Assembly (NCBI RefSeq): GCF_000023125.1
Contig: NC_013037.1
Coordinates: forward strand, 186,001-250,000
Direction: 5' to 3'
DNA from: Dyadobacter fermentans DSM 18053
GTDB taxonomy: Bacteria > Bacteroidota > Bacteroidia > Cytophagales > Spirosomataceae
DNA: 64,000 nucleotides
In this document: piece by piece, positions 20,612 through 54,947 of the stretch
How positions within the stretch are numbered: the stretch's first letter is position 1
Layout of the letters: the number at the start of each line of letters is the position of its first letter
Position numbers and translations under genes: made by a program
Notes under the pieces: model-generated
Seen by the model: the letters and a program-made list of their open reading frames with translations, nothing else
Told to the model about the DNA's origin: nothing
The model's database searches: none

Positions 20612-20696
20612 AAATTTTTATATTGCCGCAATGGCTTCCCGCTCGACGCACGCCGCTTCTACGATCTGATGTGAATCTCTTGAATACGCTTTGCCA

Positions 20697-21911
20697 ATGA
20701 AACTGAAAGGACATCAGATCATCATTTTTGGTTTACCGCGATTTGACGCACCTATCGAGTCCACCAATTACACGACCGCCAAGCTGCTCGCACGGGAAAA
20801 CGAGGTGTATTACGTTGAAAACCCCTTCACGCTGAGGGATTTTTTCAGGCTTCGGCGCACGCCGGAATATCAGCTGCGCAAGGAGCATTTTTCGCTCACA
20901 GGCCATTCACTGATCGAAACCGACACGCCGAACCTCAAAGTGATCATTCCGCCGATATTGTTGTCGGTGAACTTCCTTCCGGAAAACAGGCTGTTCCGTG
21001 CGGCGCTGAAATTCAATGAATTCCTCATCCGCGCCAAGCTGAAAAGCATTCTCGAAACCTACCGGATCAGGGATTACATTTTCATCAATTCCTTCAACTT
21101 CCATTACCCCACGCTCTCGGAAGGCCTCTCGCCGAGGCTCAAAGTGTACCATTGCCTCGATCCGATGGTGCTGCCTTTCAACCGGCGGCACGGTGTGGTT
21201 TCGGAGGATATCCTCGTGAAGCAGAGCGACGTGGTGATTTGCAGCAGCAGGCAATTGTACGAGGAGAAAAAACAGCAGAACCCGTACAGCTATTTCGTGG
21301 CCAATGCGGCCGATCTGGGCCATAGCAGCAAGGCTTTGAACCCCGATTTGCCGGTTTACCCGGCCATTGCCGCATTAAAAAAGCCGGTAATCGGTTACCT
21401 GGGTGCGATCGAGCGGCGCATGGATTATGATTTGCTGAAAACGGTCATACTCGCGAATCCCGATAAGAGCTTTGCATTCGTGGGGCCGGTGTCGCGGGAG
21501 TTTGTGCCCGACTGGTTCTTTACCGCCGAAAATGTCCATTTCCCCGGCCCGATCGATTACGACGATATGCCTGCGGTGATCAAAGGCTTCGATGTCGCGC
21601 TGATCCCGTTCAAGAAAGACGACGTAAGCAGCAGCATTTTTCCATTGAAACTCTTCGAATACCTCGGCGCGGGCAAACCCGTGGTCGCAATTGACTTTAA
21701 CCCTGATTTAAAGGAGTTTACCAAAGGCGAGGTGACATTCTGCGAAACTGCGGACAGTTTTTCGGAAGCCATTAACACGGCTCTTCAAACCGATAATGCC
21801 GAGCAGCGCAAAAACCGCGTAACGATCGCCGCCGAAAACACGTGGGAAAACCGTGTGGATGCCATTGGCGACATTATCCATTACCACCTCGAACAGGTGA
21901 TCCAGCCGTAG
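20697..21911 (+). CDS. GT4-like glycosyltransferase (GT-B fold)
   Basis: 404 residues. The N-terminal half begins 'MKLKGHQIIIFGLPRFDAPIESTNYTTAKLLAREN', and the C-terminal half carries 'KPVIGYLGAIERRMDYDLL', 'SFAFVGPVS', 'NVHFPGPIDYDDMPAVIKGFDVALIPFKKDD' and 'PLKLFEYLGAGKPVVAIDF'. This is the standard donor-binding region of GT4-like enzymes, with the glutamate of 'FEYLGAG'. The ATG at 20697 is preferred over the in-frame TTG six bases earlier. It is the last gene of the forward polysaccharide operon and is separated by 85 bases from the fucosyltransferase. Downstream lies one copy of the 68-nt repeat element, then a convergent acyltransferase. Confidence 0.87.
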   Translation: MKLKGHQIIIFGLPRFDAPIESTNYTTAKLLARENEVYYVENPFTLRDFFRLRRTPEYQLRKEHFSLTGHSLIETDTPNLKVIIPPILLSVNFLPENRLFRAALKFNEFLIRAKLKSILETYRIRDYIFINSFNFHYPTLSEGLSPRLKVYHCLDPMVLPFNRRHGVVSEDILVKQSDVVICSSRQLYEEKKQQNPYSYFVANAADLGHSSKALNPDLPVYPAIAALKKPVIGYLGAIERRMDYDLLKTVILANPDKSFAFVGPVSREFVPDWFFTAENVHFPGPIDYDDMPAVIKGFDVALIPFKKDDVSSSIFPLKLFEYLGAGKPVVAIDFNPDLKEFTKGEVTFCETADSFSEAINTALQTDNAEQRKNRVTIAAENTWENRVDAIGDIIHYHLEQVIQP

Positions 21912-21918
21912 CGACTCC

Positions 21919-21986
21919 GGAGGCTCCGCAGGAGCCGGATTTCGGTATTGTAATTGATCCCTATAAACAGGATGCCCCTCCGGGGC
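21919..21986 (+). repeat. 68-nt two-hairpin repeat element, copy 1
   Basis: The element reads, in order, a hairpin GGAGGCTCCGCAGGAGCC (21919-21936), a 24-nt spacer (21937-21960), the core CTATAAACAGG (21961-21971), two bases, and a second hairpin GCCCCTCCGGGGC (21974-21986). Two more copies of exactly the same length and layout lie at 52858-52925 and 52939-53006. Between copies the spacer differs but keeps its length, and the stems change in a pairing-preserving way. It lies between two convergent genes, as REP-type elements often do. Confidence 0.8.
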
Positions 21987-21994
21987 GGCCGCAC

Positions 21995-23110
21995 CTACTT
22001 CCGCGCCATTTCTCCTTCCTGTACCTTCTTAGGTGATTTGTACTGGAAACGCATTTCAATGTGCTTGTACGTCCATGCGGATACAAAATAGATCAGCACG
22101 AAATTGACGATAAACAGGTAAGAATATGCTTCCGGGGGAAATTTCAATATCCGGATAAATAATACATTGAAAAGGCTGATCAGCAGCGCGTGCGTCATGT
22201 AGATCGAGTAGGAGTATTGCCCGAGCTTATGCAGCAACCGCACGCTTTTGAGCCCTTTTGAAATAAACCCCTTTTCGAAGGAGAATGTGTAAATGCAAAT
22301 GAAGAAGAGTATTTCAAAGACTGCGCCCCACGGTTTCATGAACTCCCCGTTGTAAATGCTGAGGCAAATGAGGCTCAACGATATCGCTTCCACGGCCGAA
22401 AATAGTGCGGGCGACCATTCGCGCACGCGTACGTGGGTGACGCTGAAAAAGTTGAAGCACAAAACGCCGGTGAAAAAACCTAGAATGCCCCTCAAAAAGC
22501 CGTAATCGAAGCTGTAATTGATCTGGAAACTTTTGGAAACAGACCAGAGCGCGGCGAGGGAAATGACGATCATGAGTCCGTACCACGCATTGCGACTGCG
22601 AAACTGGTTGCTGCGGTGAATGAACACCACCAGACTCCCGAAAACCAGGTAAGCCATCATTTCCGCGCTGATAGACCAGCTGGGAATGTTCCAGCTCACA
22701 TCCCGCACGCCCGGCACCGGCGTGGAGTTGATCAGGAAAAGTGACGTGAAAAAGGTGTAGACATTGTTGGCCGGATTCACCAGGTTATTGACTTTAATGT
22801 AAGGCACCAGCAGGTTTTTGGCCACTTCCATCCCGACAAATGCCAGCAGCATCACGAAATGCAGCGGGTAAATGCGATAAACCCTTTTTTTGAGAAACAG
22901 GCCGAACTGGCCCCAATCGGCCAGCGATTGGTAGCTGTACGCGATCACGAACCCGCTGAGGACGAAGAAAAAGTCCACGAACATGTCGGAGTTTTCAATG
23001 AAACGGTTGTTCAGAATGGGCGTGTTGGCGAAGGGGCCGAGATGGAACATGAACACGAGCGAGGCAAACAGCCCGCGGAATATGTCCAGTACTTCGAAAC
23101 GGTGTTTCAT
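21995..23110 (-). CDS. Acyltransferase 3 family membrane protein
   Basis: 371 residues, about ten membrane helices. The N-terminus 'RFEVLDIFRGLFASLVFMFHL' has the catalytic-site histidine context of the OafA/acyltransferase 3 family, and 'FFFVLSGFVIAYSY' is the usual second motif. Members O-acetylate exopolysaccharide, O-antigen or peptidoglycan using cytoplasmic acyl-CoA. Its ATG overlaps the stop of the SiaB-like kinase gene (23107-23110), making it the last gene of a five-gene operon with a PP2C phosphatase, STAS protein and kinase. That context suggests its activity or amount is under partner-switch control. Confidence 0.88.
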   Translation of the reverse strand: MKHRFEVLDIFRGLFASLVFMFHLGPFANTPILNNRFIENSDMFVDFFFVLSGFVIAYSYQSLADWGQFGLFLKKRVYRIYPLHFVMLLAFVGMEVAKNLLVPYIKVNNLVNPANNVYTFFTSLFLINSTPVPGVRDVSWNIPSWSISAEMMAYLVFGSLVVFIHRSNQFRSRNAWYGLMIVISLAALWSVSKSFQINYSFDYGFLRGILGFFTGVLCFNFFSVTHVRVREWSPALFSAVEAISLSLICLSIYNGEFMKPWGAVFEILFFICIYTFSFEKGFISKGLKSVRLLHKLGQYSYSIYMTHALLISLFNVLFIRILKFPPEAYSYLFIVNFVLIYFVSAWTYKHIEMRFQYKSPKKVQEGEMARK

Positions 23111-50291: not shown

Positions 50292-51428
50292 ATGGCTGTT
50301 AATAGAGAATTGACTTCCAGTTCAGTTGAATCCAAAAAGAGAAAGTCACCGGCGCGGGAGTGGTTCGACTCCATTTTGTTTGCGGTAGTGGCCGCTACAC
50401 TCATCCGCTGGCTGTTTTTCGAAGCATTTACCATCCCTACACCGTCGATGGAGAACAGCCTGCTTGTGGGAGACTTCCTGTTTGTGAGCAAGCTGCATTA
50501 CGGTACGCGGACGCCGAAAACGCCGTTGCAGGTGCCATTGACGCACCAGACCATCTGGGGAACCAATATTCCTTCTTACACCAGCCTGATCCAGCTGCCG
50601 CAATACCGGCTGCCGGGTTTCAGCGAAGTAAAGCGCGGCGATGTGGTGGTATTCAACTACCCGCCCGAAATGCAGCATCCGGTGGATTTGAAAACCAATT
50701 ATATCAAACGTTGCGTAGGTATTCCGGGCGATAAAGTGGAAGTGCGTGACTTGCAGGTGTATAACAATGGTCAGCCAATGGAAAACCCTCCAAGAATGGA
50801 GAACGAGTACTTCGTGGCTACTACCACCGCCGTAAACGAGGAAAAAGTGTTCCGCGAGAATGGTATTTCGGAGTTCAACTCCTTTACCGACGGCGAAAAC
50901 GATACAATCCGAGGCAATGAGCAAATGGGTTACCTCGTGTTTACAACCGAAGAAATTGCGGCAAAGCTCAAAACCTATGATTTTGTCAAAAGCATCACGC
51001 TCGTGAAAACGGATAACGGCATCAGCGAACCGATGCTTTACCCGAATTCGTCGCTGTTTAAATGGAACCGCGACAACTACGGACCGATTACCGTGCCCAA
51101 AAAAGGGATGACCGTGCAGCTTACACCTGAGAACATCGCGACCTACGGACCGGTGATCAAAAGCTACGAGGACAATGACGACGTGACGATCGAAGAAAAT
51201 GCGATCAAAGTCGGCGGAAAGGCCATTACTTCCTACACATTCAAGCAGGATTACTATTTTATGATGGGCGATAACCGCCACAATTCGGCCGACTCGCGCT
51301 ACTGGGGCTTCGTACCCATGGACCACATCGTGGGCAAGGCGGTATTCGTGTGGATGTCTATCGATCCCAACCCGACCAGCTTCTTCAACAAAATCCGTTG
51401 GAGCCGCATTTTCCGGGTGATCAACTAG
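50292..51428 (+). CDS. lepB: Signal peptidase I, copy 1
   Basis: 378 residues. A membrane helix (about 28-46) leads to the catalytic serine S52 in '[20 protein letters not shown]'; the general base is K139 in '[16 protein letters not shown]'; '[22 protein letters not shown]' is the conserved box E. It removes signal peptides at the outer face of the inner membrane. Like other Bacteroidota LepB it is longer than the E. coli enzyme because of an insertion between the catalytic lysine and box E. A terminator follows, then a paralogue. Confidence 0.95.
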
Positions 51429-51480: not shown

Positions 51481-51589
51481 TTTGTGATGTATATATAAAT
51501 AAATGCTATATAATGGTTGTTGGTTTATTAAAATTGATGGTATATTGCGTTCACTTGAATCCTCTGAGCTTTTAATTGAACGAAGCACC

Positions 51590-52768
51590 ATGCCACTTAC
51601 TGAACCCATATCCAAGCCCGCCACTGCCCCGCGTAAAAAGTCGGCTATCCGCGAATGGATTGATTCGGTACTATTTGCCGTAATCGCCGCCACGCTGATC
51701 CGCTGGCTGTTTTTCAGCGCATTTGTGATCCCGACGCCGTCGATGGAGAACAGTTTGCTCGTGGGCGACTACCTGTTTGTGAGCAGGCTACATTACGGCA
51801 CCACCACGCCCGTCACACCATTGCAGGTGCCTCTCACGCACCAGACGATCTGGGGAACGAACATTCCGTCGTATCTCGACTGGATTCAACTCCCTCAATA
51901 CCGCCTGCCGGGCTTCACCGATGTGAAAAACGGTGATGTGGTCGTATTTTATCTGCCGGTGGAACACCCCGATATGTATCAGAAATACAGCCGTGTGCTC
52001 CCCGACCTGCACCCGCATCCCATAGACTTGCGTTCGAACTACATTAAGCGCTGCGTAGGTATTCCGGGGGATAAGCTAGAAGTGCGCCGCGGGGAGGTGT
52101 ACGTGAATGGCCAGGCACAGACGTCACCCCCGCGTATGCAGAATGAGTATTTTGTTTCCGTCAAAACAGCTGTGAATGAGGAAAATGTGTTTCGAAAGAA
52201 TGGAATCGTAGATTTCTCGCAGTTCACGGAGACATTCGGCGACAGCATTGCCACTAACGATGAATTTGGATATGTGGTTAAAACAACGGCCGACCTCGCA
52301 GAAAAGCTGAGAGGCTACGACTTCGTCAACCGCGTCGAGCCGGTGTTTATGGAGCAAGGCCTGAAAGAGCCATTTCTATTCCCAGAAAACAACGCAACCA
52401 ACTGGAACAAGGATAACTACGGCCCGATAGTGGTGCCGAAAGCGGGTATGACAGTTCAGTTAAGTGAAATCAACATCGCCCAGTACGGCGACATCATCAC
52501 GAGCTACGAAGGCAACGAAAACGTCGCGATCGAGAATGGCAAGATCAGCATTGACAGGAAACCGGTCACGAGCTACACGTTCAAGCAAGATTACTACTTC
52601 ATGATGGGCGACAACCGCCACGATTCCGCCGACTCGCGCTACTGGGGCTTCGTTCCCAAGGACCACATCGTCGGAAAAGCCGTTTTCGTATGGATGTCCA
52701 TCGACCCCAACCCGACTAGCTTCTTAAAAAAAATCCGCTGGGACCGAATTTTCAGGATGATTAATTGA
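51590..52768 (+). CDS. lepB: Signal peptidase I, copy 2
   Basis: 392 residues, a tandem paralogue of the gene at 50292. The catalytic pair is intact: S51 in '[20 protein letters not shown]' and K153 in '[16 protein letters not shown]'; box E reads '[22 protein letters not shown]'. It differs by an extra 14 or so residues before the lysine ('PVEHPDMYQKYSRVLPDLHPHP') and by a diverged insertion domain, so substrate preference may differ. The frame extends to 51503, but ATG 51590 aligns with copy 1. A terminator between the copies means it probably has its own promoter in the AT-rich stretch 51480-51589. Confidence 0.94.
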   Translation: MPLTEPISKPATAPRKKSAIREWIDSVLFAVIAATLIRWLFFSAFVIPTPSMENSLLVGDYLFVSRLHYGTTTPVTPLQVPLTHQTIWGTNIPSYLDWIQLPQYRLPGFTDVKNGDVVVFYLPVEHPDMYQKYSRVLPDLHPHPIDLRSNYIKRCVGIPGDKLEVRRGEVYVNGQAQTSPPRMQNEYFVSVKTAVNEENVFRKNGIVDFSQFTETFGDSIATNDEFGYVVKTTADLAEKLRGYDFVNRVEPVFMEQGLKEPFLFPENNATNWNKDNYGPIVVPKAGMTVQLSEINIAQYGDIITSYEGNENVAIENGKISIDRKPVTSYTFKQDYYFMMGDNRHDSADSRYWGFVPKDHIVGKAVFVWMSIDPNPTSFLKKIRWDRIFRMIN

Positions 52769-52857
52769 TGGAGCAAGAAGCAGAACGGAAGAAAGAGTCA
52801 GGAATAGAAGAATGAGTAATGTGGGAATGGACCAAGCAAGAAATGTCCAAAGAACAT

Positions 52858-52925
52858 GGCCCGGAGGGCGATCCTGTTTATAGCAACTCAGGCACGACCC
52901 ACGTTTCGGCTCCTTCGGAGCCTCC
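52858..52925 (-). repeat. 68-nt two-hairpin repeat element, copy 2 (inverted)
   Basis: Read on the minus strand: hairpin GGAGGCTCCGAAGGAGCC (52925-52908), 24-nt spacer (52907-52884), core CTATAAACAGG (52883-52873), two bases and a second hairpin of GCCC/GGGC type. Length and spacing match the copies at 21919 and 52939 exactly. Confidence 0.8.
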
Positions 52926-52938
52926 TAATCACAGCGCA

Positions 52939-53006
52939 GGAGGCCCCGAAGGGGCCAGCCGCCAGATCGGCGTTTGATTGCTATAAACAGGGTGCCACTC
53001 CGTGGC
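52939..53006 (+). repeat. 68-nt two-hairpin repeat element, copy 3
   Basis: Hairpin GGAGGCCCCGAAGGGGCC (52939-52956), 24-nt spacer (52957-52980), core CTATAAACAGG (52981-52991), two bases and hairpin GCCACTCCGTGGC (52994-53006). Compared with copy 1 both stems carry paired changes that keep base pairing (T-A to C-G in the first, C-G to A-T in the second). A run of five T follows. Confidence 0.8.
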
Positions 53007-53123
53007 TTTTTGTCCCTACTTCCATTTATTGCCTTCGTCTATTACTCTCTCTCAATGCCTTCGTTCATCCATCGCTTGCTCCCTTCCTCGATTCCGCTCT
53101 CGCTCCATTCGACCCTTCCCCCG

Positions 53124-54947
53124 CTACTCTTCCTGCGAGAAGATCAGCGCTGAATATGGGGGAATTTGTAATTCGCCCCATTGTTCGTAGATGTCCATTT
53201 CGCCTTCGCTGGTTTCGATGTCGAATACGCCCAGGTGAGAGAAGTCGGCGTCGTAGTGTTCGTTGTCGGTGTTGAGGCGGAGGTGCCATTTACCGGGCCG
53301 CGGGAAGCCGATTTTGTAATCGGAGAAAGTTTCGGTGGAGAAGTTGAATACCACTACCACGCTATCTTTCGGACCGCCTTCTGCCCAGCGGTGCATTACC
53401 ACCACCTTTTTCTCATTGTCCTGGCGGACGATCTCCGTGTTTTGGCCTTGCAAGCCGCGCGTCACGCCGAACCAGTTGCGGCGGATATGGATCATATCGC
53501 GGTGCAATGCAGCGAATCCGCTGAATTTTTCGAGACGTGACCAGTCGATCGGGTCGCTGTCCGAGAACCATTTGTCTTCCAGCAGCGGCTGGCCCTGGAA
53601 AATCATCGGGATGCCGGGAGAGGTGAGCACCAGCGCTACGCCCAACGCCGCGCGTTTTTTGGAATACCAGTTGTCCACATCGCCGTCGGCAATCTCTTCG
53701 GCCACGCGCGCCTGGCCATTCGCTACTTCGTCGTGCGATTCGGTGTAGATAATGCGTTGGAACGAGTCGTTGTTGTAGCGGCTTGTGATCGCGGATACCA
53801 CGCCTTCCATGTCGCGGTCTTCGTCGTTGGCGGTGATGATTGCGTCGCGGATCGTGTGCACGAATTTCGCATCCCATTGCGACCCATACCCAAGCCCGCC
53901 ATCTTCCACGCGGCTGGTGATAAAATCCAGCGAATGCATATCCTCGGCGATCGTAATGCAGTTGGCGCAGCTGTCGCGGATGTCCTTATTGATCCATTGC
54001 ATAAGCGAAATGCCCTCGGGGATATCGTCGCCGGGATTGCCATTCGCTTTCACATTGCGGATGTAAGGCACCATATCCATGCGGAGGCCGTCGATGCGGT
54101 AGTCGCGGAGCCACATTAATGCATTGTCGTGAATGTACTGGCGCACTTCGCCGCGACCGTAGTCGGGGCGGGTGTTGCCCCAGGGGGTTTCGGAGCGCCA
54201 GTCGTTGTAAAAGTAGATACCGCCGCCATCGTTCTCATGCCAGCCGTCGAACTGCCACAGGTCGAGGTCGGAGGGGCCGAAATGGTTGTACACCACGTCG
54301 AGGATCACCGCGATGCCGGCCTCGTGGGCCGCTTTCACGAATGCTTTCAGGCCATCGGGACCGCCGTAGTCGGACTCTATCGCGAACGGGTTGGAGGGGT
54401 TGTAGCCCCACGACTTATCGCCCGGGAACTCCGAGCACGGCATGAGCTCAACAGCATTGAAACCCATGTCTTTCAGGTACGGGATGCGTTCGATAGCGGT
54501 GTAGAATGTGCCGACCTGACCTTCCTCCGTAACATTGAAAGTGCCCACATGCATTTCATAAATGACCAGTTCATGCCAGCCGGGCATTTGGAAGGACACA
54601 TCCTGCCAGTCAAAAGACTCGTGATTGTAAACCACGCAATTGCCTGCGGAATTGGTTACTTTAAGCGCGTACGGATCGTTGCGTTGCAGCTCTCCGGCGG
54701 GTGTTTTGAGGAAAAATTTGTATTCATCTCCTTCTTTTGAATTTTCGACTAGTGCGCCCCACACTCCGTTCTCTTCGGGTTGCAGCGGGTTGGCGGACGA
54801 ATCCCAGTCGTTGAAACTTCCTATGACCGAAACGCTTTCTGCGTGCGGCGCCCACACCCGGTAATAAACTCCGTCGGGGTGGCAGGTTGCGCCCATGCCT
54901 TCATAGTGTTGCTCGGTTTCGGCTACATCGGTTTCGAGGTTTTCCAT
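53124..54947 (-). CDS. GH13 alpha-glucan branching enzyme-like protein
   Basis: 607 residues. An N-terminal CBM48-like domain (about 22-105: 'GVYYRVWAPHAESVSVIGSFNDWD') precedes a GH13 barrel with all four conserved regions: 'ILDVVYNHFGPS', 'GLRMDMVPYI' (nucleophile D), 'ITIAEDMHSL' (acid/base E) and 'YTESHDEV' (stabiliser D). A beta-rich C-terminal domain follows. Domain order and length fit 1,4-alpha-glucan branching enzymes and close relatives acting on glycogen or maltodextrin. No other glycogen genes are nearby, so the exact reaction is not certain; it converges on lepB copy 2. Confidence 0.85.
   Translation of the reverse strand: MENLETDVAETEQHYEGMGATCHPDGVYYRVWAPHAESVSVIGSFNDWDSSANPLQPEENGVWGALVENSKEGDEYKFFLKTPAGELQRNDPYALKVTNSAGNCVVYNHESFDWQDVSFQMPGWHELVIYEMHVGTFNVTEEGQVGTFYTAIERIPYLKDMGFNAVELMPCSEFPGDKSWGYNPSNPFAIESDYGGPDGLKAFVKAAHEAGIAVILDVVYNHFGPSDLDLWQFDGWHENDGGGIYFYNDWRSETPWGNTRPDYGRGEVRQYIHDNALMWLRDYRIDGLRMDMVPYIRNVKANGNPGDDIPEGISLMQWINKDIRDSCANCITIAEDMHSLDFITSRVEDGGLGYGSQWDAKFVHTIRDAIITANDEDRDMEGVVSAITSRYNNDSFQRIIYTESHDEVANGQARVAEEIADGDVDNWYSKKRAALGVALVLTSPGIPMIFQGQPLLEDKWFSDSDPIDWSRLEKFSGFAALHRDMIHIRRNWFGVTRGLQGQNTEIVRQDNEKKVVVMHRWAEGGPKDSVVVVFNFSTETFSDYKIGFPRPGKWHLRLNTDNEHYDADFSHLGVFDIETSEGEMDIYEQWGELQIPPYSALIFSQEE

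Follow-up and report, generated by a model that had tools for sequence, protein, structure and literature searches.

BIMEs of enterobacteria are mosaics of inverted palindromic repeats that lie between genes. They are named in the available text of PMC8266576, according to which known REP transposases cut at a CT dinucleotide near a hairpin, guided by a 5' motif. In the REPIN/RAYT systems of Pseudomonas, E. coli and Stenotrophomonas, as described in the available parts of PMC3116915 and PMC8266576, extragenic palindromic repeats form inverted doublets, each folding into a single hairpin; they occur in clusters and flank a single-copy, vertically kept Y1 gene. Palindromic dimers are reported also from Bacteroidetes in the form of CGTC-tagged REPs, with stems of up to 9 bp, loops of 4-5 nt and a CGTC or TGTC end, which, according to the accessible part of PMC3733652, seem to lack a dedicated transposase. 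Among the transposases, the available text of PMC6006769 describes a TnpA-Y1 subclass 1.2 of approximately 150 aa, with a Y---Q--HH-type motif, a low copy number and Bacteroidetes among its phyla. This subclass is generally without the typical terminal IS200 structures, and its table entry is 'no' in the column that gives REP types for other subclasses (PMC6006769, same part).

The locus analysed here, positions 52858-53006 of a 64,000-nt stretch of the Dyadobacter fermentans DSM 18053 genome (the window), contains two outward-facing elements, the left one on the minus strand and the right one on the plus strand, with an 11-nt centre. When the first A of AGGA is counted, each element of the pair is 69 nt long and the total span is 149 nt. 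The preliminary description had divided the same 149 nt into 68 + 13 + 68, and its two outward-facing elements are real. A third copy, which it had placed at 21919, was found as a singlet at 21918-21986. The features are (window coordinates, strand, description):

52858..53006, no strand: inverted pair, probably a REPIN-like unit, predicted to fold as one long hairpin
52858..52926, minus: element copy A (covariance model match, 71.3 bits)
52923-52926, 52908-52922 and 52884-52907, minus: AGGA, 6-bp hairpin and spacer of copy A
52873-52883 and 52858-52870, minus: core CTATAAACAGG and second hairpin of copy A, one of the five pairs broken (CGCCC/GGGCC)
52927..52937, no strand: centre between the divergent elements, 11 nt
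52938..53006, plus: element copy B (covariance model match, 70.8 bits)
52938-52941, 52942-52956 and 52957-52980, plus: AGGA, 6-bp hairpin and spacer of copy B
52981-52991 and 52994-53006, plus: core and second hairpin of copy B
51503..52768, plus: signal peptidase I, left neighbour of the pair (TIGR02227, 133 bits, cut-off 47)
53124..54947, minus: branching-enzyme-like protein of the alpha-amylase family, right neighbour of the pair, convergent (GlgB models below their cut-offs)
21918..21986, plus: third copy in the window, singlet
21918-21921, 21922-21936 and 21937-21960, plus: CGGA, hairpin and spacer of the singlet
21961-21971 and 21974-21986, plus: core and second hairpin of the singlet
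20691..21911, plus: glycosyltransferase, left neighbour of the singlet
21995..23110, minus: acyltransferase-domain protein, right neighbour of the singlet, convergent

The element thus reads, in this order, AGGA, a 6-bp hairpin with a 3-nt loop, the spacer, CTATAAACAGG, 2 bases and a 5-bp hairpin. Since AGGA stands before hairpin 1 and CAGG plus 2 nt before hairpin 2, the element can be described as an in-line arrangement of two hairpin modules that resemble each other, with CTATAAAC in front of the second. All three copies in the window have a 24-nt spacer, the exact core and a 2-nt gap before the second hairpin. Folded as single-stranded DNA, the pair at 52858-53006 (the one pair folded) gave a single hairpin of -47.5 kcal/mol (z -7.9), as expected of an inverted repeat. 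The left flank of the pair (52769-52857) is rich in purines and the right flank (53007-53123) in pyrimidines. The signal peptidase ORF (51503-52768) and the adjacent ORF at 50292-51428 show 74% DNA likeness near their 3' ends.

We consider it probable that the pair is a REPIN-like non-autonomous unit that is moved as single-stranded DNA by a transposase of subclass 1.2, here called TnpA-alpha, and that the D. fermentans population of this unit is an orphan.

The genome (6,967,790 bp, one contig) contains the exact core 52 times against 9 for the reversed pattern, showing that the element is not a product of chance; 3 of the 52 cores lie outside an element, as judged by eye. A covariance model was built from 42 copies, which had been chosen for the alignment by their exact core; the ten cores left out were the 3 outside elements, 6 in one array (L013) and 1 tandem unit of locus L021. 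The model matched 96 places in the genome at E<=1. Three were dropped before grouping (E 0.05, 0.43 and 0.60) and 93 were kept (92 at E<0.01, one at 0.03), which group into 36 loci; the further copies envisaged in the preliminary description are therefore present, and they occur in other Dyadobacter genomes as well. Plain '-+' pairs make up 17 of the 36 loci, and arrays with this polarity a further 7; the remainder are '+-' pairs (7 loci), single elements (4) and one '+--' group. The gap is 6-18 nt in 15 of the 17 plain pairs, and in the other two the elements overlap. Like BIMEs, the loci are mosaics of inverted palindromes between genes; unlike BIMEs, all 7 arrays keep the minus copies on the left and the plus copies on the right (for instance '---++' and '----+++++++++++++'), and within a run most neighbours overlap by 18 nt, which corresponds to a shared hairpin. 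The array L013 (genome 908368-909524) has 17 model matches, 4 minus followed by 13 plus, with units approximately 52-55 nt apart within the runs. When eight pairs were aligned with 60-nt flanks, similarity was confined to about 149 nt; 3 of the 8 had probably been turned the wrong way, which lowers the inner identity and leaves the border unaffected.

The larger sample changes the picture of the spacer. The preliminary description had taken it to be fixed in length and free in sequence. The 24 nt of the three window copies hold for 19 of the 42 aligned copies, the others having 25 (9 copies), 27 (8), 23 (3) or 26 nt (3). The spacers of the two arms of one pair do differ, but the same arm is similar in some other loci: 41 of 861 spacer pairs were above the 99.9% level of shuffled spacers, with a best value of 0.85. 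In 33 of the 42 copies AGGA stands in front of the first hairpin, and the rest have AGGC, AGGT, CGGA or AGAA there; the second hairpin follows CAGG and two bases in 42 of 42, these copies having been selected by that core.

Paired substitutions in the stems, already noted in the three window copies, were recovered in the alignment. In total 92.9% of the stem cells were paired, compared to 79.6% in shuffled alignments (none of 500 shuffles was as high), and 61 cells carried a double change against 13.9 in shuffles, which ignore the relatedness of the copies; the number of pair types was not in excess (16 against 15.7). Such covariation would also suit structured RNA or bidirectional transcript ends (a terminator or mRNA-stabilising hairpins), with the linkage to a transposase being secondary. 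The orientation of the flanking genes, which the preliminary description had suggested checking, points the same way: according to a rough gene caller, 12 of 30 loci have convergent, 17 tandem and 1 divergent neighbour genes, compared to 7, 18 and 8 among the 33 intergenic spaces of the window. However, inert repeats would avoid promoter regions too. Moreover, most loci are inverted pairs with copies in both orientations, no Rfam family matched the 64-kb window at the gathering threshold, the elements are absent at the signal-peptidase site in 26 of 28 genomes and their number ranges from 0 to at least 105 inside one genus (see below). We regard an RNA or terminator origin as very improbable, and for the small RNA option of the preliminary description we found nothing in favour beyond the covarying stems.

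Several traits are shared with REPs and REPINs: the element is a short palindromic repeat with many extragenic copies (28 of the 30 loci examined are intergenic, and 2 overlap an ORF predicted by a rough gene caller), and it forms inverted doublets with a hairpin fold. In contrast to REPINs, of which a half contains one hairpin, the Dyadobacter half-unit consists of two hairpins and the core. The GTAG/GTGG tetranucleotide found at the foot of REP hairpins was not found in the 42 copies, and the phylum is Bacteroidota. From CGTC-tagged REPs, the elements are set apart, by description, by their stems of 5-6 bp, mostly 3-nt loops and AGGA/CAGG foot. In the titles and abstract starts of the open-licence papers listed, which look unrelated, CTATAAACAGG was not found, and apparently none of these papers treats interspersed palindromic repeats of Dyadobacter.

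To find the partner, 48 Dyadobacter genomes were scanned for elements and Y1 genes. Among the matches listed, Y1 genes were present in 47 of the 48 genomes, and 146 loci from relatives were examined together with the one of D. fermentans, three weak matches being left out. From these 147 loci 134 proteins were extracted, and the 132 of at least 120 aa were placed in a tree, leaving 15 loci outside it. One clade of 14 (support 98/100), TnpA-alpha, stands out, as all 14 genes have an element model match at 0-137 nt from the open frame. Within 2 kb of the 118 other tree members only 4 weak matches were found, at L137 (31 bits), L176 (27 bits), L195 (20 bits) and L204 (16.9 bits, E 0.006, approximately 500 nt from the gene); 17 loci were labelled in the tree, the clade of 14 with L137, L176 and L195, and L204 was left out. 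The usual layout at the clade-alpha loci is '- tnpA +', the polarity of the pair with the gene in its centre, and several genomes (L198, L203) have element pairs on both sides of the gene. The preliminary description had offered a small RNA, a transposase-recognised DNA hairpin pair and a protein-bound spacing. Judged from sequence comparison, the second of these appears to be favoured, as copies flank one Y1 clade in 14 of 14 cases and the architecture recurs in Bacteroidota.

TnpA-alpha is 153-156 aa long. The HxH motif and the tyrosine are kept in 14 of 14 proteins, as are the Y, Q and HH of the Y---Q--HH-type motif, although L120 is without the two residues between Q and HH. The protein scores over the cut-offs of the IS200 model NF033573 (70.4 bits, cut-off 55) and of PF01797 (85.8 bits, cut-off 23), and below that of the NCBIfam REP-transposase model NF047646 (30.3 bits, cut-off 80). 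Its solved relatives in the PDB are ISHp608 and other IS200-type transposases, some of which we take to be ISDra2. In motif, length, low copy number and phylum TnpA-alpha resembles TnpA-Y1 subclass 1.2, to which it is assigned by motif and not by the profile of PMC6006769. It differs from the published subclass, which is described as having no REP or IS-type structures in the available text of that paper, in being flanked by a repeat family. Apart from PMC6006769, the titles and abstract starts of open-licence papers yielded nothing on REPs of subclass 1.2. RAYTs differ in their motif (Y--NP). The Dyadobacter system thus looks like a REPIN system in build and inheritance, but we have not filed it as classical REP/RAYT.

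In each of the 14 genomes the tree contains a single clade-alpha gene. Thirteen of the 14 are found at one chromosomal place, next to a glutamine-synthetase-like gene and an SDR gene, both of which are seen in most cases and at least one in all (L135 shows the downstream neighbour alone, in a short locus, and L200 the upstream neighbour alone); in the remaining genome, G016, the gene lies elsewhere and the shared place is empty. TnpA-alpha thereby shows the RAYT traits of being flanked, single-copy and vertically inherited, the last being indicated by the common neighbours together with the single copy per genome. With IS200/IS605 elements (IS608, ISDra2) the system shares the protein superfamily and the presence, 5' of the hairpins, of a short motif with a possible guide function. 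However, tnpA-alpha occurs once per genome at one place with inverted two-hairpin elements as flanks, and a transposase gene that moves and multiplies was not seen in this between-species comparison.

These data also bear on the explanation that a true insertion sequence gave rise to the unit as a miniature derivative. In this case element-tnpA-element would jump in one piece, and the 149-nt pair would be its internal deletion product. The '- tnpA +' layout, having the polarity of the pair with the gene central, would fit this, as would a TnpA-alpha that exceeds the NF033573 cut-off and stays below that of the REP-transposase model. One clade-alpha gene per genome, beside the same neighbours in 13 of 14 cases, with G016 as the sole case of a gene elsewhere, speaks against a jumping gene, and we think this origin unlikely.

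The clade-alpha gene was not found in the D. fermentans genome. The REP/REPIN trait of copies that flank a RAYT-type gene of their own genome was therefore seen in 14 other Dyadobacter genomes and not in D. fermentans. The RAYT/Y1 gene that the preliminary description had suggested looking for does exist in D. fermentans as one Y1 gene (L010, the sole Y1_Tnp match), but this gene belongs to another clade, has other hairpins beside it and lies approximately 3 kb from the nearest element pair, and it was rejected as the partner. The search for a degraded partner gave one more match in the genome, with E 0.09 and 27% identity; it falls in an ORF that resembles a sigma factor by eye and was likewise rejected. 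Beside the Y1 gene, at L010:9000-9500 (genome about 5819000-5819500), lies a different array of short hairpins, and array and gene apparently make up another repeat-transposase system, which has a core of its own.

The first neighbour gene of the tnpA-alpha place is present in 48 of 48 genomes, and the place could be judged in 42 of them (G004, G015, G017, G036, G045 and G047 were left out; in G017 the element model matches 148 nt beyond the first neighbour). The gene is present in 13 genomes (and elsewhere in G016), elements without the gene in 8, a gene fragment in 2 and neither in 18. One fragment, in G029, matches tnpA-alpha over 52 aa at 79%; the candidate in G014 (27 aa at 56%) is only probable in view of its E value of 0.014. 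In D. fermentans the two neighbour genes are 133 nt apart, with no tnpA match and one element between them, on the minus strand (genome 5634305-5634372), which starts 22 nt beyond the point where the match to the first gene stops. Places with neither gene nor elements have gaps of 31-248 nt, with a trace of 12 bits (E 0.06) in G037. In G007 (L351) a different tandem repeat of approximately 50 nt fills the tnpA-alpha site.

Element counts in the 48 genomes range from 0 (7 genomes) to at least 105, counts near 100 being lower bounds. The median was 94 in genomes with the gene (n=14), 44 with elements only (n=8), 3 with a fragment (n=2) and 2 with neither (n=18). Statistics that ignore phylogeny gave p=6e-6 over three place states (Kruskal), p=0.07 for gene present versus elements only and p=3e-4 for elements only versus neither. 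Genomes with clade-alpha as such had a median of 94 (n=14) and those without it one of 5.5 (n=34; p=7e-6, phylogeny again ignored); in the same test 2 of 8 other Y1 clades also went with higher counts (p=0.024 and 0.036) and six did not. Genomes without the gene may still carry many copies, as do D. fermentans (90), G013 (90) and G031 (52). We infer that the absence of tnpA-alpha in D. fermentans is a loss. As element pairs can lie on both sides of the gene, loss by recombination between the flanking pairs, leaving one pair, is plausible.

The site of the pair itself was compared across relatives. Of 30 loci fetched, two had elements between the signal-peptidase and branching-enzyme genes (D. 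fermentans and G026); 28 span both genes, and 26 are element-free, with a space of 26-232 nt. The elements of D. fermentans and G026 differ in arrangement and spacing, which suggests that they stem from separate insertions. Three further empty-site queries (L051, L045 and L059) gave many-copy matches or diverged sites. Several element-free relatives have an imperfect purine/pyrimidine palindrome at the signal-peptidase site, and the flanks of this site are suggestive of insertion into a palindrome. REP dimers inside palindromes have been reported in other bacteria (PMC3733652, accessible part). Insertion into the loops of larger palindromes is not claimed here for the family, as flank complementarity over 30 loci was barely above that of mismatched flanks (8.8 against 7.5, p=0.045).

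Taken as a REPIN-like unit, the pair could be moved in the following way. When the region is single-stranded during replication or repair, the hairpins would be exposed, and TnpA-alpha would recognise each of them with its short 5' motif (AGG/CAGG). It would then cut nearby, perhaps in the CTAYAA stretch, the CT of which is the same dinucleotide that is cut by known REP transposases; from this analogy the CT in CTAYAA and AGG/CAGG are a candidate cut site and guide. By rejoining, the unit of 149 nt would be copied or moved to intergenic sites elsewhere. In D. fermentans, TnpA-alpha would have been lost from the conserved place, with the 36 loci kept as orphans. Recognition, cleavage and transposition of the elements by TnpA-alpha are thus putative activities.

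A two-hairpin module flanks related Y1 genes across Bacteroidota, and these genes, too, resemble subclass 1.2. Scanning GTDB with one clade-alpha protein gave 98 loci, of which the best 80 were used, mostly from Bacteroidota and a few from other phyla. The element model matched 34 of these 80 at E<=0.01, in every case with a match at no more than 250 nt from the gene, and the nearest element pointed outward in 19 of 21 cases upstream and 20 of 27 downstream. Beyond the genus the core varies (CTACAAACAT, CTATAATCAT), with 13 nt from the core start to the second hairpin in most rows. A generic search for a hairpin, spacer, YTAYWA and hairpin found modules within 250 nt of the gene in 56 of the 80 loci, with 2.1/kb near the gene (counted as one per side and strand) against 0.03/kb (6 modules) more than 1 kb away, in flanks that are largely coding, and none in shuffles. 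As this search was written after the flanks had been inspected, it describes the pattern and is no independent test. In the family of D. fermentans the model matched at E<=1e-5 in at least 51 of 200 genomes and at least 14 of 36 genera (best 25 candidates per genome). Module variants preceded by TGTC occur in other Bacteroidota.

Of the nearest downstream elements, 12 of 27, from many genera, start 3-10 nt after the matched gene end. This is hard to reconcile with an accidental proximity, in which the elements would belong to another mobiliser and tnpA-alpha loci would merely be frequent targets. The many copies that D. fermentans keeps without the gene do allow that something else maintains the elements. 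However, matches at 14 of 14 genes in one clade against weak ones at 4 of 118 others, and the other hairpin families beside some other Y1 genes, leave this as the least probable of the explanations considered, with hardly any weight.

TnpA-alpha as the mover of a REPIN-like unit could be part of a wider phenomenon. Tentatively, and with more doubt than belief, we put forward that in subclass 1.2 TnpA, across Bacteroidota, IS200-type transposases were domesticated for REP spreading a second time and independently, and that each 68-nt element is a complete end pair, with hairpin 1 as the left and hairpin 2 as the right end, own guides and a cut site in CTAYAA. If so, a single element could excise or amplify alone, which would explain the arrays with a period of approximately 52 nt that share hairpins and have one polarity on each side of the centre. 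The subclass 1.2 HUH nucleases of Bacteroidota, published as generally without flanking structures, gain a candidate substrate of definite anatomy. In addition, one genus offers the place of the partner gene intact, with elements only, with a gene fragment or empty, at element counts of 0 to at least 105. Dyadobacter thereby provides natural cases of transposase gain and loss, named in the available text of a study on REPIN persistence as a main issue left unaddressed (PMC8049555), and the absence of the likely partner gene from D. fermentans opens the fate of repeats after loss of their transposase to study.

Within Dyadobacter the generic search found modules at 8 of 14 clade-alpha loci, at 7 of 7 and 14 of 16 loci in two other clades and at no more than 0-2 loci per group in the remaining ten, with 0.45/kb near the gene against 0.04/kb far from it. 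The modules that flank the genes of two other Y1 clades (e.g. L074, L079, L134 and L150) are of the same type but differ in their stems (GGTGC; ACCCG and ATCCC), hinting that the repeat families are clade-specific among Dyadobacter Y1 genes.
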